This document shows positions 10,466 to 29,087 of a DNA stretch of 64,000 nt, one piece after another (position 1 is the first letter of the stretch; every line of letters starts with the position of its first letter). The position numbers were made by a program, and so were the translations under genes. The notes under the pieces were generated by a model. It had not been told where the DNA came from and made no database searches. It worked only from the letters and a program-made list of their open reading frames with translations. This stretch comes from Caenorhabditis elegans (Eukaryota; Nematoda; Chromadorea; Rhabditida; Rhabditidae): assembly GCF_000002985.6 (NCBI RefSeq), contig NC_003279.8, positions 3,596,001-3,660,000 on the forward strand. Reading direction: 5' to 3'.

Positions 10466-12279
10466 TCATTTATTATTATTATCATCTTCGAAGGGCGTGG
10501 GCGCTGTCAAAAGTCCCTGATCCGTTTGCCACGTGGAAGTGAACTTCATGAAGGCGTCTCGAGCATCCAAAGCGTCATATTCCCTGGCGAAAGCCTCAAA
10601 TTGTGCTCTTTTTTCTTCAACTGAAGAAGCGATCCGTTCGATTCGAGACAATCTTCGTTTCAGCTGCTTCCGTTCTATCGGTGCAATTTGCTCGTATGAG
10701 TCGTCGGGAAGCGGTCTAGAATGTTCACCTGACTGAAAAATTTGATTTTATTCTCAAACAAAAACCAGAAAAAGCTGACCTGATTTACAAATTTCAGGGT
10801 TTTCCAGAGACATTTTCCCAGAGATGCTTTGAGTTGAATCAGGGTGATTGATGTTTCATCGTTTTCTGAAATTGGATTTTACAGTTGGATTTTACAAATT
10901 TGCCAAAAAAAAAACAAATTTTGTAATGAGATTGCCAAAGAAAATCTCAAAATTTTTTTTTGAGTGGTTAAAAATTTCGAAAAAGTGGCTAATTTCAGCT
11001 AAAACTCCTAGTTTTGGCTGATTCGAAAATTCAAAATCGAATATTTTACCAAAAATTGGAGAAATTGTCCAATTTTTTCGAAATTTTAATCCCAAAAATC
11101 TTTTAAAAAGAGATTTTTCAGAGGTTCCATTACGAAATCCGTACTCCCAGAACGGACCACTCTCATACGCCACCATGATACAGAATCCACGAAGTTTCGG
11201 TTTTGAAGAGAACGAGAAAAGAGCAGTTTGAGGACGTTTCGTTTCGTTTAACAAGTACTGTGATAAGGAAAAAAGAATCTTATTTCCAAGTTTAGAATCT
11301 GTTGTAATGTCCATTTTCAGCTTATTTGATCGTTTGCTTCCCAGGAATCCCTGACGGCAGAGCTCGATTTCAGGCAAAAATCCGAGAAATGAAATAGAGT
11401 CGATCAGTGTTACATGGCTTCCTATTTTTTGTTTCTTGAATAGCTGCAAATTTGAAATAAATACTTGAATTTCAAAATTTCACTAAAAACACCTTAATCT
11501 TGAATTTATCGCTTCCAAATCTACAAATAATTTCCTTTTCGCTCATTTTTTGCCGTTTCTCCGCAATAATTTCTCGGTTCAGTTCTTTCAAATCAGCGGG
11601 ACACAATAAGAATCGTAGGTTTACACTAGATCGTTCAAAATTTGTAGCAACTTCCTTTGCAGCTTCATAATCGTCGTAAAGAGTTTTCAGTTCACCGATG
11701 ACGTAAACAGTAAGATTTGGTGGAAATTCGCGGTCGAGCAATGCCAGTTTCTAAAAAAAAAGGACGATATTACATTAAAATTATATATTAAATAACAAAC
11801 AATATTCAGGAACATCTCGACATCGATGAACCAGTGAAATTTCTTGATTTTATACTCTGTTTCGCAGCTTTTATTCATTTTTTCGATTTCCCGAATAGCA
11901 AATTCCGCATTCGCCTCGCCATTTGATTCAATTGTCTTTGAAATTGTTGAAAGTAGAGTTGAAATAGGCTCAAGCTTGCTATCAGAATTTCCACGCGTCA
12001 TGCTGACTCCGAGATCGGTGCTTTTAGCCACCGCCACGTCAACCTCACAACCAATCATTTGTTCGATATGCAGACGGATTATATTGCAGCAGGTAGACCA
12101 TCTGGATGCTGAAATTATTGAAATTTCCTGTGGGAATTTTAAATTTTAAATGATAGCTCACCAATATTTGCGACGTTTTCAGTTCCCTCGTCTATTGAAT
12201 CCATTTCAATTGGAGCAGGCCATAGGCTGCTCATACTATTGCTCATGCTCATAATAAACATTGAAAATTCTTCTTCCAT
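10466..12279 (-). CDS. Divergent, short Ku80-like protein (vWA-like plus Ku core)
   Basis: Six exons on the minus strand: 12279-12162, 12108-11801, 11750-11493, 11443-11134, 10865-10780, 10732-10466, in phase (448 aa). By eye the order of blocks follows Ku80. A vWA-like stretch (about residues 45-130) has GCEVDVAVAKSTDLGVSM, aligning to Ku80 'DEIALVLFGTD', and KKFHWFIDVEMFLN, aligning to 'RHIEIFTDL'. A later block, SFLGFLPEIELCRQGFLGSK, aligns to the Ku80 segment 'VLGFCKSSQVQRRFFMG'. The end is a basic and then acidic helical tail finishing FEDDNNNK. Ku binds DNA ends in non-homologous end joining. Full Ku80 is about 700 aa, so this one is short. C. elegans already has a Ku80 (cku-80) elsewhere as I recall, so this would be a paralogue. 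The exon at 11443-11134 uses a GTAATG donor chosen by phase. Confidence 0.6.
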
Positions 12280-12615
12280 TTTTAATCGGAAATGGGTTGA
12301 AATTGAATCTAAAGATCTAAATTGAATAAAAACTTTGTTTAAAAAATGAAAATTTGAATTTCGTCGTATGGGTACGGTAGACAAACCTGCACATCAAACT
12401 GCGAGCGCGCGAAATTTTTATTTGGAATTTAAAATTAATTTCCTGCAAATATCGTAATTTTTTCCACTATTTTCCATGTTTTTCTTGGATTTCTGAAGAT
12501 TAAAATAATTATTTCAGCTCAAAACAATCATCTAATCAAAAGGAGCGAAAATCTGAAAAAGCAGGAAAAGTAGGAAGCAATCCGGATTTTTACCAATTTA
12601 ATTTCCATTTTTCAG
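12280..12615. promoter_or_regulatory. Divergent promoter region between the Ku-like gene and the first innexin
   Basis: A 336-bp AT-rich spacer between two divergent ATGs. TTTTTCAG sits directly before the innexin ATG at 12616, the usual trans-splice or 5'-UTR acceptor. No TATA box is evident. Sharing of regulatory sequence is inference. Confidence 0.45.
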
Positions 12616-22374: not shown

Positions 22375-22850
22375 GGCAAATTGCTGATTTACAGTTTGCC
22401 GAACATCAATTTGTCGGTAGTTTTCAGAGGGACTTTTTATAAGGCAAAAACACTTAAAACTGTGCCTTTTGTGCGATACCACTATTTGCCGAAAATTCTC
22501 GGCAATTGCCTTTTTCTCCGGCAAATTTGTCAAATCGGCAGTTGTCGTTTGTCCGGTAAACTCTGAAAATCGACAATTTTCCGGAAGTTTGAATTCCGGC
22601 AATTTTCAGATTTGCCGGAAATTCAAATTCTGGCAATTTGCCGATTTTTTTGCAATCTCGGCAAATCGGCAATTTTCAGGAAGTTTCAACTCATGCAATC
22701 TGCCGATTTGCCTGAAATTTCAATTCCGGCAATTTTCCGATTTGCCGGAAATTTCAATTTTGGCAATTTGCCGATTTGCCGAATAGGTTTGGCAATTGCC
22801 GCTTTTCCGGCAAAATCGGCAAATCGGCAATTTGCCGAGTTTCCTTATAA
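22375..22850. repeat. Minisatellite of CCGGCAATTTGCCGA units, intergenic
   Basis: About a dozen degenerate copies of the unit seen at 6960-7190 (for example CCGGCAATTTTCAGATTTGCC). It occupies most of the 840-bp gap between the innexin stop (22107) and the next gene (22948). A shorter run lies at 21890-21970 in the preceding intron. Confidence 0.8.
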
Positions 22851-22947
22851 AGTCGACGATCTTATGATAAATTAAAAGTGAAGAGGAAGAACATAAGGGA
22901 TACAAAGATCCCCCGAAAATGATTTATTACAAGTGGATCAATAAGTT

Positions 22948-23636
22948 CTAGGTTCTCTTTCTTTTTCTCGACTTCTTCGATCTCTTCGTTCTCGCTTTAC
23001 GCTCCTCTTTTTCCGCATTTTCCAGACTTTTTGGACTGAAGGCTTCCGAGATCCCGACAAACTCTCGACAGAAGTTCTGATCATATCTGTACAACGGTCG
23101 CTCTCCAATCCAGTATCGCAACGGAGGAATTCGGTTTCGTTTTGGGCGAGAGCAGGAGTCTGGAAGATAATTTTTATTCGAAAAGTGGTTTACATTGAAC
23201 AAAAACTTACGATCGACAAGCTTGGACTTTGCCAGGTTGGGATGAAGCTTCGACTTTTTCGATATTGGAGTTGATGCCATACTTGGGACAAAAACATCGT
23301 CGTCCTGAACTTCGACATCTCGTCCTGATCGATTTCTAGGGGATCCTTCCGATGACATTGCTGGACTGCGCATCGGATGCTCATCAGTAGAGTCTCGAAT
23401 CCCATTCATTACCGGGAATGCTTGAATCGCAGTGTTAGAGTTCCTAGTAGAGACTTGAGAAGGCTCGTCGAGGTAGCTGAGAGTTTCATCGATTCCCGCC
23501 TCGTGGAGCATCATCATTTCGGTCATACGCTGAAATTTAAGAATTATTGAGAGCTGGGAAAAGAAATTGAACTCACTCTTCCTGGTACGAGGGTGCTTCG
23601 AGGACGAGGAACTCTGCGTGTATACTGATCAGCCAT
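22948..23636 (-). CDS. Small basic protein with a CENP-C motif
   Basis: Three exons on the minus strand: 23636-23577, 23529-23211, 23159-22948 (196 aa). It starts MADQYTRRVPRPRSTLVPGR. The middle is Ser/Pro-rich and probably disordered, with NRSGRDVEVQDDDVFVPSM. Near residue 130 it has RPKRNRIPPLRYWIGERP, then LYRYDQ. This matches the CENP-C motif (R-x-S/T-x-R-x-x-x-x-P-x-x-Y/F-W-x-x-E) used by CENP-C to dock on the CENP-A nucleosome. The C-terminus is a bipartite basic tail (KEERKARTKRSKKSRKRKRT), a likely nuclear localisation signal. No cupin dimerisation domain is visible after the motif, unlike full CENP-C. I do not know a name for it. C. elegans CENP-C (hcp-4) is a different, larger gene. 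Confidence 0.72.
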
Positions 23637-24581: not shown

Positions 24582-27500
24582 ATGCAACCATGCAAATCGT
24601 TTTTTCTAATTTTAAAGTTTCTCGTGTTATTGGTGACAAATATCGAAGGAATCGACGTTTTCTGTGGTCAACTAGAGATTTTCAATGAGCAACGGTTTGG
24701 ACAGGGTGCGATTACGGTATCCTCCCAAACGACGACTGACATGAAACAGTGTCTGGATGTTTGTTGCTCAATACCCAGTGAGTTTTGAACTTTTTGTTTT
24801 GTTGGAGAATTTGAACTCAGAGTCCCGTGCCTCATAATTTTGCAAGAATTTCAAATTTCGAGTTAGAGGCAATTTAGGAATTTGAAATTTGCGCGTAAAA
24901 TATGACGCATTAGGTCGGTCCACACAGCTAACCCTAGCCACTGGCTGTAAAAATGTCCTAATTTGTAATAACTCAATAATGAGCACACGCTAGGAGTCCA
25001 GAAGAATTTAGAAAAAATTGCGAAAGTTTGAATTGTTCTTATTAAAAATTGTGCTTTTGAATTGATCAAATGAGTTCTAAGCCAAATTTTTGAAGTTAAT
25101 TTGACAAATTTAAACCATTTAGGCCAAACAAATTTCTCTGCCAACTTTCTTTAAAAAAATTAAAAAAAAAAAAGATGAAACAATTTAATCCAATCAAGAA
25201 TTTCAACTTTTGAGTTAGTGACAATTTACGAGTTTTTAAATACCAAAAACTTAATTTATAAACTGTATTTTCTCAAAAACGGGTGGTGTAAAATTCGAGA
25301 AACATTTTTGGGAAAATTTGGAACATTCGTGAAATATCTGGGAACTTCTGGAAATTTTGAGAAACCTTCGAAAAATTCCAACAACTTTTAAAAGCTTTAA
25401 ACAAATTCGAGAAACTACTGGACAATTTCAAAAACCATTGGTAACTTTTAAAAAACTGAAAGCTATTTTTAAAGAAAAAATCAAAAAAAAGTCCATAGAT
25501 TTTAATTTCAGAAAATAGATTACAAAATTTTGTAGCTGAGCAGGTTTTAGGTTGAGGTGCTCGCCTACGTGGCGTACCAATAAAATTTGAGATCTCCGAT
25601 AATTTTAAAATATTTGAAATTGAAATACATACTATTTTTTGTATATTCCCGTTATCATACCTGAGCCACGTGGTGTCAGGCTGACCCATTACGGTTTGAT
25701 CTAGAAAAAATGCGGGAATTTTTCTCCCAAAAAACGTTACGTCAGCACGTTTTTAACCATGCGAAATCAGTTGAGAAGTTTGCGTCTAAAATCCAGAAAT
25801 TCCCGCAATTCTCGTAAATCTGCTTAGATCACACCGAAATGGGACACTCTGACACCACGTGCTGAGCGAGAAAATTTGCGCGTAAGATATAGTGTATTCC
25901 ATGAGTCTCCCTGTAATTTTTCAGAACATTTTTCTGACGTCATATTTTTTCTTAGCCACTCCGAAAGTATATATCTATTTTTCCTCTTTTCAATAATCCA
26001 CGGCCAAACAAAAAAAAACCGAAACTATCCGGTTTAAAGTATAATCCATGTTCCCATGTTTCGGGAAGGGATACTCGAAAACATAAATGTATCAGCAAAA
26101 GCGAGCCTTCCTCGAGTTGTTTGCCCAATTCGAACTACCAGTCGAATCGTTCCGTGCGCGGGAAATGCTCAGCAGCTTCTCCTCCGTATGTGTGTGTGTG
26201 TGCTCCGCGAGCACGGAGACAGTGTCGCGGTTAATCCGCGTGTCATACAATCGTTTGTTTTATCGTCGGCTAAACCGATTCTCTCGCGCCTATTTGAAAG
26301 CAGCTACCAATCCTGAATTTGAGCATTTGAGCATTCAAAACAAGAAGCTGTTCCCTTTCGGGACGGAAATAATAGAAGAGTAGCTGGGAGAGGAGGGGGG
26401 TAGTTGTCCTTTTATTTCCGTTTCTATGGAGATTGAAGCGCGATGCATTGAGACGAGAAGAGTGAAATAAGAAGACGGGTAAATATAAATAGAATGAATG
26501 TGTTTTTCTAGTAGGAAGAGATGATGGATACAGGGGAAGGGAGAGCATTTTTAGTTCGTTCTGGAAAAATATCACATTTTTTCTAGTGCACAGCCCGAGA
26601 AGCAGCGCCTGTTGGCAATTTTCTATCCTTGACTTTTGTGAAAGTTTTTTTTTCTTCAAAACGGCTGGTGAAAGGTTCTTGAAACATTTTCGGAAAATTT
26701 TCGGGTATTCGCAAAATATCTGGGAATTTGTGAACATTTTGAGAAACCGTTGAAGAATTTAAAAAAACTTCAAAAAGTTTTAAACAAATTCGAGAAACTA
26801 CTGGAAGTTTCAGAGACATTTAGAAAAATTCTAGAAACTCCTGAAAAATTTCAAAAACTTTTGGTAACTTTTAAAAAACTTGAGAATTTTCGGGAAAGGT
26901 CTGAAACTATGAAGAATCTAATCTACAGAACCATTTTTGTGAAAATTCGAGAAACTGGTAAAAAAATATGTGTTATTTTTGAAACGTACTGGAAAAATCT
27001 AGAATTTTTTTTTGGATAAATTTGTAATTTTTTGAAAATAAAACCACTGGAAAAAAACTGGACTTTTTTTGACATGATTTCCAAATTTCTGAAATTAAAA
27101 AAAAAGTTTTCAATTTTGCAAAACAATCAAAAAATTATTATTTGACACTTAAAAATATGTTTATTCCCGCAAAACTGCTAGAAATAGTCTCAGCCTTTCG
27201 ACAAAAAAAAATCCTTAAAACTTTTAATAATCTACCAATTAAACGTTACCTACATTCAAACCTACGTGCCTGCCTACTGTCAGTCGATGCACCATGTGTG
27301 CGCAAACATTCTTTTGCAAAACGGCTACTAGGACAGTTAATCTTAAAAATCTTTTACAAAAAAAACACAAGTTCTACCTGCTACTTCTAATCCCCAGAGT
27401 ACCGATAGTGCGCCACTCATGCTGCTCTGAGTAAATCTGGAGCCTTGTTTCAAGCTCAGTCGCGCAGCTTAAATTTAATTTTTAAGAGTTTTTCAACACG

Positions 27501-29087
27501 AGCTTTCAAGTGAAATATGCCTTGTTCAAAAGCCCGGTGGTGCATTCTGACCCTTCCTTAGTGACTCAACGATTACTCATATTCAATAATCAAAATCTTG
27601 AATTCCAGATTGCGACGGAGTAACATTCGAAGGAATAACCTCCACAGATTTCGACGATTCCAACTGTCTCCTGGTATCCTGTGAGCCCGAATGTCAATTC
27701 AATGGTCCTTCAACTCAACATTCATCAGGCGTTCTTTCAGTACTTATTCACCGTATTAGGGTAAGTCTTTTTTATTCTATTTTCATCAATTTATTTTTTC
27801 CGCTTCTTTCAAAACTACGTAGCCATTTCACACGTGAATTATTCAAGGGGGGGGGGGGGGTCGTGTGCATTTGCTTCGACGGCTCTCATGTAATGAGAAC
27901 TGGGAGAGGGGGGGGGGGGGGGGGTATTACATATTAGTTACCTCCCCTTCCATTTCTCCCCGGGGTAGGTTTTATTACTACTTATTTTACGAGAGGAGGT
28001 AGTAATCATTTTGGGGATTATATATTAGTGGCGGAAGGATAGATTTAAAAGAGGGATACAATAACAGATATACGGGTGAATGGAGAAGGTGCTTAATTGA
28101 ACGTAGCTAATATCCTGCTCTAAAGGTAGAAAGGGAAGTCTGTAGGAAAAAAGATTCTTCAGTGAAAATTACTGAAATAGAAGCTTTAGCCAAATTTCTG
28201 ATAGAAAATTCTTATTCCAAGATATATTAAAAAACTATCAACTGACAAAGTATTTATTAAAACATGCTTAACAATTTTGTAGTTTACAAAATTTTGATTA
28301 CTGTTATGAAAACCGAGATATAAGTGGTCAAAGTTGATGATTCCAAAAACGCAGCCGACATAGCTTATGTAAAAGTCTCCTGCGAAACGTCGGCTGCTTT
28401 ATTTTTTTAATATACAGAATATATATAGAAAATCATGTGCACTTCGAAGCAGCCGACATCTCCCGGGTAGGCCATTGTCGGAGCGGCCTGTAAGGTGTCG
28501 GCCGTTGCCACCACCACAACCTTAATGGATTCTATCTCGGTTGCTATTAGTTCTAGAAAAACAGTTTCAACTGTAAAATTAATCAAAGTTCTGTCTTCTA
28601 TAATTCTGCAACAGGAAATTTTCTATAGTAATAGAAGTAAAAAATATGCTTTCAAAAGAAATCCACTCGTGAAATGTCGGCTGCATTAACAACTGAAAAC
28701 GTGCAGTGGACATTTACAAAACTTTTACTCTTTTACTCTCAGTATTTTTATGAAGTTATCAAGACAATCTCACTACAAAAATATGTTGCCCATGCTGCTC
28801 AGCTTCCAAAAAAAATTTAAAATTTCCAATATTTCCAGAACGAAACAACAACGCCACCAACCCCATCAACAACAAAATCCTCGTACATCCCAGAAATCCG
28901 GGCGGCACTAACACCCTTCTGGGTCCTGGCTGTCGCAATCGGAGTCGCTGCAATTTGTGTCGGCCTAAATGTGACCCTGTGTGTCGCGTACTGTTGTTAC
29001 TGTAGACGAAAGAAACGAAGTCAAAAAGCACATATATCCACTGTAAAGGGTGGACCCACATTGCATGCTTTTAATCCTCAAGTTTGA
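24582..29087 (+). CDS. Type I membrane protein with a MANSC/PAN-like cysteine-rich ectodomain
   Basis: Three exons, 24582-24777, 27609-27760, 28839-29087 (198 aa), with introns of 2.8 and 1.1 kb. A signal peptide (FFLILKFLVLLVTNIEG) is followed by a compact Cys-rich ectodomain: DVFCGQ, MKQCLDVCCSIPNCDGVTF, CLLVSCEPECQF. The C-x3-CC-x3-C and late C-x3-C spacing resembles MANSC or PAN-type modules. Next are a Thr/Pro linker, one TM helix (FWVLAVAIGVAAICVGLNVTLCVAYCCYC), a stop-transfer KKRSQK, and a short cytoplasmic tail. The role is probably extracellular binding; the ligand is unknown. CTCTCTCCAG at 24550-24559 is a likely acceptor upstream of the ATG. The first intron contains two long diverged direct repeats, and the second contains poly-G tracts. 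Confidence 0.7.
25262..25465. repeat. Diverged direct repeat, partner at 26640-26900
   Basis: AAAACGG(G/C)TGGTG, AAATATCTGGGAA, TTTGAGAAACC and TTTAAACAAATTCGAGAAACTACTGG occur in the same order in both copies, about 1.4 kb apart in the same intron. It looks like an old segmental duplication or a dispersed repeat. Confidence 0.7.
27846..27924. repeat. Two poly-G tracts in an intron
   Basis: Uninterrupted G runs begin near 27847 and 27908, each well over ten G. Similar G or C runs occur at about 31141-31156 (C), 37190-37201 (G) and 50048-50065 (C). They can form G-quadruplexes. Confidence 0.85.
28328..28690. repeat. Copies of the GCAGCCGACAT...ATGTCGGCTGC hairpin repeat
   Basis: GCAGCCGACAT and its complement (A)TGTCGGCTGC delimit short hairpins near 28351-28396 and 28450-28685. 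Further copies lie at 31615-31680 and 31850-31915 in the following gap. The intervening sequence often reads CTCACG..GCC. Confidence 0.7.

Follow-up and report, generated by a model that had tools for sequence, protein, structure and literature searches.

CENP-C contacts CENP-A nucleosomes and, with an N-terminal segment some 45 residues long, connects them to the Mis12 complex (PMC9252888), and in the CENP-C motif basic residues meet the acidic patch while two aromatics meet the hydrophobic CENP-A tail (PMC5371998). In Caenorhabditis elegans, HCP-4 is treated in a review as the exclusive linker, and novel inner-kinetochore components are described there as not identified (PMC9252888). In a study of the worm, CENP-C is depicted with a putative Mis12 region (PMC11634037). 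A survey of 32 Caenorhabditis species (tBLASTn, E ≤ 0.1, C. elegans HCP-4 as starting query) reported seven hcp-4 duplicates, in C. latens, C. remanei, C. sp54 (two), C. afra, C. sp44 and C. kamaaina, and C. elegans is not among the species named for them (PMC9577544). Here we describe, in a stretch of 64,000 nucleotides from the left portion of chromosome I of C. elegans (NC_003279.8, positions 3,596,001 to 3,660,000; the window), a minus-strand gene running from ATG to stop at window 23636-22948. Its predicted product of 196 amino acids (aa) is, on sequence comparison, as good as certainly homologous to CENP-C/HCP-4 and is probably a second, miniature linker.

Relationship of the 196-aa protein to HCP-4

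The gene (22948..23636; all its features lie on the minus strand) consists of three exons, the introns between them being 47 and 51 bases long and both bounded by GT...AG, and this splice model gives 196 codons plus a stop, in keeping with the initial annotation, which had seen a small protein here. As comparator we used the HCP-4 locus (C1:3862935-3865937, minus strand), whose spliced model of 866 aa carries an STP tripeptide at 162-164, matching the published protein (PMC10156168) and indicating that the comparator is right. Residues 8-46 of the candidate align with HCP-4 3-43 with 24 of 41 positions identical (blastp E 1e-10), a score reached by none of 5000 shuffles, and residues 131-164 align with HCP-4 771-805 with 12 of 35 identical (E 1e-5, again 0 of 5000 shuffles). 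The two homologous ends are collinear in the two proteins, and the N-terminal one is the best conserved part of the candidate, with a stronger match to HCP-4 than that of the motif region.

The N-terminal box (23452..23615, interrupted by intron 1) reads MNRKPRTRSTIVPGR before and KMITEIVALREAGLDDTRPSYLEEP after the intron in HCP-4, and RVPRPRSTLVPGR and RMTEMMMLHEAGIDETLSYLDEP in the candidate. Intron 1 falls at the identical residue and in phase 0 in both genes: exon 1 of the candidate (23577..23636, aa 1-20, MADQYTRRVPRPRSTLVPGR) ends at PGR, the same residue as hcp-4 exon 1, and the first 26 codons of exon 2 (23529-23452 of 23211..23529) encode the rest of the box (RMTEMMMLHEAGIDETLSYLDEPSQV). 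The last intron is likewise in phase 1 in both genes, shortly before the motif, and exon 3 (22948..23159), with the CENP-C motif and the basic tail, is thus entered as is the last hcp-4 exon; the distance differs, R131 lying 4 residues on and HCP-4 R771 lying 11. In the remainder of exon 2 (aa 47-126, within 23211..23529) homology to HCP-4 was not detectable, and we rejected the middle as a homologue since 134 of 1000 shuffles score equally high.

Because the N-terminus, the motif end and the intron positions are common to both, we regard the gene as a truncated hcp-4 paralogue; they sit about 243 kb from each other on one contig, both on the minus strand. By these comparisons it is a copy of hcp-4 that retained both ends, with about 700 HCP-4 residues, including repeats, left without counterpart. 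The middle of HCP-4 (aa 214-370) is built of imperfect repeats, nine LQ(K/R/G)(T/N) and four EKN(Q/H)SS, none of which was seen in the 196-aa paralogue. The two proteins also share a C..(L/F).G(V/I) segment past the motif, and they differ in length (866 against 196 aa), in the HCP-4 STP at 162-164, which has no counterpart, and in charge: the C-terminal end of HCP-4 is acidic whereas the candidate, with an isoelectric point of 10.1, ends in a tail (aa 166-196, 22951..23043) holding 14 K/R in its 31 residues, as basic as the initial annotation had described it. This tail is possibly a nuclear localisation signal or a DNA contact.

The CENP-C motif of the candidate, RPKRNRIPPLRYWIGERP (aa 131-148, 23095..23148), is intact, as had been claimed from the letters alone: it keeps R.R, Tyr-Trp and GER and has the basic residues followed by two aromatics that mark members of the family. 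Nine motif columns are invariant across the candidate, HCP-4 and one vertebrate CENP-C. The R.R pair and the W, which are the key contact residues of the motif, are also kept in HCP-4, which has SW and GEQ in place of the YW and GER of the candidate. In a phmmer search of 177,635 distinct PDB sequences, three matches at E ≤ 10 were obtained with the full-length protein, all of them CENP-C (E 0.093, 0.17 and 1.2), while four of the six matches of a 29-aa motif peptide (best E 0.0064) and four of the six of the exon-3 peptide were CENP-C. The C-terminus of HCP-4 in the same test gave seven matches, five of them CENP-C or Mif2, with a best E of 0.0041, and the candidate motif is therefore about as good as the accepted worm CENP-C motif. 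Singly these E-values are weak, as expected for a motif of 20 residues, yet they are consistent. The vertebrate CENP-C chains (7bxt_K, 7by0_K, 4x23_V and 7xhn_C) carry the motif with R.R, YW and GER as well, and in 7by0_K and 7xhn_C the alignment extends past it; unlike them, the candidate is much shorter, with no cupin match and no second motif-like central region seen.

Two worm CENP-A ORFs (open reading frames), taken from 87 histone-family matches, end in the hydrophobic tails RRLCLRHL and RRLCLPNL; judging by their positions, we take these to be HCP-3 and CPAR-1. The differing tails could be distinguished by the two CENP-C motifs, SW in HCP-4 and YW in its paralogue.

A second protein class with a CENP-C-like motif is KNL2/M18BP1, defined by SANTA and SANT (Myb-like) domains. 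The two matches of the motif peptide outside CENP-C were PR protein P14A and a 'Myb-like domain-containing protein', and the weak match 7y7i_K (E 1.4), which bears the latter label, is presumably a KNL2. Neither a SANTA or SANT domain nor any other Pfam family was found in the candidate at E ≤ 10, and this together with its HCP-4-like N-terminus rules out a KNL2-type protein. C. elegans KNL-2 has itself been reported to be without a CENP-C-like motif (PMC8259991). The initial annotation had also stressed the absence of a cupin domain, which stands for the candidate but is not distinctive: at E ≤ 10 HCP-4 gave three matches to Pfam, none reaching the cut-off and none of them CENP-C, and a six-frame search of the worm genome with the cupin family PF11699 gave no match. 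Since HCP-4 lacks a cupin match too, the cupin is no criterion of CENP-C membership for the worm protein. The expectation of a second CENP-C-motif protein in this holocentric worm was borne out, with the N-terminus and introns identifying it as an HCP-4/CENP-C paralogue and not a motif-bearing orphan.

Age and constraint

Over 69 codons aligned between the candidate gene and hcp-4, the proportion of synonymous differences (pS) is 0.89, which is saturated, and that of nonsynonymous differences (pN) is 0.35, with 36 of 69 residues identical, an identity flattered by the choice of these codons as alignable blocks. At fourfold sites in residues common to both, 12 of 14 differ. When the candidate was simulated as neutral at a pS of 0.70, the mean identity was 20% and the maximum over 300 runs was 36%. 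As a rough yardstick, the CENP-A paralogues HCP-3 and CPAR-1 have a pS of 0.34 over 78 codons; the genes and regions differ, so that only a rough order of events can be read from it. The saturated synonymous sites rule out a young degenerate copy of hcp-4.

We also simulated neutral change and scored the whole ends at six distances (d), with 200 runs each and indels ignored. At the largest, a d of 1.0 per lineage (fourfold difference 0.69), none of the 200 runs attained the observed N-terminal score and one attained that of the C-terminus. Smaller distances leave more room for neutrality: 0 and 16 of 200 runs at a d of 0.8 (fourfold difference 0.65), and 1 and 119 at 0.6 (0.59), for the N- and C-terminal scores respectively. 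At a d of 0.4 the numbers were 102 and 199. From a d of 0.4 upwards, none of 200 runs left a neutral frame of 196 codons open. As the synonymous change observed equals or exceeds that of the largest simulated distance, constraint is well supported for the N-terminus and somewhat less so for the motif end. The gene thus appears to be an old hcp-4 copy under constraint, a conclusion that is firm for the N-terminal end and less firm for the motif end.

A probable miniature linker and its alternatives

We consider it probable that the 196-aa protein is a mini-CENP-C, a second, minimal linker from the CENP-A nucleosome to the Mis12 complex, which is the simplest reading; the candidate is little beyond two CENP-C-type ends. 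Its C-terminal motif would dock on nucleosomes containing CENP-A (HCP-3 and/or CPAR-1), its basic residues meeting the H2A-H2B acidic patch and its Tyr-Trp pair the hydrophobic CENP-A tail, and the conserved N-terminal box would, judging by its position, contact the Mis12 complex. Such a second linker may be active in particular cells, to be sought first in the germline. HCP-4 T163 is used in PLK-1 docking (PMC10156168), and the one STP of the candidate (aa 106-108, 23266..23274) could act as a similar Polo-box docking site, by analogy; composition would lead one to expect 0.31 S[ST]P, which makes the tripeptide not significant alone, and it is not aligned with HCP-4 162-164.

Several observations count against a miniature linker. 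A profile of the candidate and HCP-4 N-termini gave ten unrelated matches in the PDB (best E 0.38), with no CENP-C or Mis12-complex chain among them, and the proposal of Mis12 binding therefore comes from the position of the box and from HCP-4. The vertebrate CENP-C motif alone has been reported as insufficient for kinetochore targeting (PMC5371998), and the 196-aa protein has no visible dimerisation domain. The genome searches between the two proteins were not reciprocal either: the C-terminal 107 residues of HCP-4 retrieve the candidate (E 0.014, 29% identity), the N-terminal 153 residues of HCP-4, with the box split by an intron, do not, and the exon-2 box of the candidate does not retrieve HCP-4; this could explain how the copy escaped notice. 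Genome-wide match counts are lower bounds for this reason, including the two places found at E ≤ 10 with the motif peptide, namely its own gene and hcp-4 (C1:3863166-3863225, E 0.49), and further hcp-4-derived copies may be present in the worm genome.

CENP-A and HCP-4 have been reported as dispensable for meiotic segregation, what retains the outer kinetochore being unknown (PMC9252888). It is conceivable that C. elegans has two CENP-C-type linkers, the ancient miniature being a dedicated germline or meiotic one that helps to keep an outer kinetochore on the holocentric chromosomes when HCP-4 and CENP-A are dispensable, although we think this unlikely. A meiotic dependence on HCP-4 and MEL-28 has been described (PMC10156168, citing Hattersley et al. 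2022), and if assembly is explained by these two, little room is left for a third receptor, for which we marked the proposal down; a CENP-C-motif receptor in meiosis would also have to function without CENP-A.

The same two ends could serve a competitor or buffer, a mini-protein that sits on CENP-A nucleosomes and/or Mis12 heads but assembles no productive kinetochore, and so limits HCP-4 sites at some stage. The candidate is small and very basic and is without the HCP-4 middle, including the stretch near T163 used for PLK-1 docking, all of which would suit such a role, but the N-terminal box has been kept beside the motif, where a pure nucleosome competitor would need no box, and constraint has better support at the N-terminus than at the motif end; we therefore give competition a minor, tentative place. 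A protein gone from the kinetochore altogether, whose motif binds acidic patches generally, on H3 and CENP-A nucleosomes, and whose box has been repurposed, would be in line with the strong basic tail and with a box that is not recognisable by sequence as a known Mis12 binder. This seems doubtful to us, given that the YW aromatics typical of CENP-A-tail contact were kept, where HCP-4 itself has SW.

That the gene is a decaying, non-functional fragment of hcp-4 is very improbable. It is truncated relative to HCP-4, Caenorhabditis duplicates of centromeric proteins have been characterised as short-lived (PMC9577544), and at a d of up to 0.4 per lineage neutral copies often retain the observed scores. 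Against decay stand the open frame, the clean splice sites and the AATAAA signal, the conservation of both ends despite synonymous change beyond the smaller simulated distances, with the N-terminal score never reached at the largest, and a report that most kinetochore duplicates are under purifying selection (PMC9577544). A chance resemblance of an unrelated basic protein to the CENP-C motif might be argued from the weak single PDB E-values and the silence of Pfam, but the independent N-terminal homology to HCP-4 and the common intron positions refute it, leaving it a negligible probability. On balance we retain the miniature linker as the preferred reading.

Surroundings of the gene and implications

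An AATAAA polyadenylation signal (22923..22928) starts 20 bases past the stop codon, and directly downstream of the gene (22567-22781) lies an imperfect tandem or palindromic array of 6.2 copies of a unit of about 34 bases, ATTTGCCGGAAATTTCAATTCCGGCAATTTGCCG. On the opposite strand, the neighbour at 24582-29084 (+) begins with an ORF (ATG at 24582) that has a signal-peptide-like stretch and cysteines, and an ORF near 29 kb (+) has a membrane-spanning-like stretch; by eye, the two may form one single-pass membrane protein. The initial annotation had also placed mis-12 at 13 kb distance, a label that we could not confirm: the Pfam Mis12 family gave no match in the whole worm genome, and in the region probably meant by the label (10469-12393, minus strand) four ORF pieces gave no Pfam family. 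This part of the chromosome is presumably that of cosmid Y47G6A. An innexin ORF near 12.6 kb (by Pfam) and a similar ORF near 15.9 kb (by eye) are consistent with inx-21 and inx-22, which are listed as Y47G6A.1 and.2 (PMC3920094).

In a search of the open-licence literature we found no report of an hcp-4 paralogue in C. elegans, no mention of Y47G6A together with the kinetochore and none of Y47G6A.25. Pattern matches in prokaryote genomes (36) and viral contigs (2) included no relatives of the candidate, as expected for a nematode gene, and plasmids gave no match. A DNA search of the worm genome with the candidate gene found its own locus only, and the gene is therefore probably unaffected by RNA interference against hcp-4.

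An overlooked second CENP-C could alter the interpretation of depletion experiments, and the question of how the outer kinetochore is retained in meiosis becomes testable with one gene deletion. The candidate would be a natural minimal linker, an N-terminal box and a nucleosome motif from which nearly all else has been removed. In C. afra, the hcp-4/hcp-3 fusion HCP-3L8 likewise joins the first hcp-4 exons to a piece that targets CENP-A chromatin, with the difference that the fusion partner of its N-terminal part is a CENP-A paralogue and that it is without the CENP-C motif retained by the candidate (PMC9577544). Taken together, the candidate and this fusion suggest that the N-terminal exons of hcp-4 are a portable module. 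The 196-aa protein is thus a candidate for a second link between the centromere and the segregation machinery, where so far a single one has been assumed for this animal.
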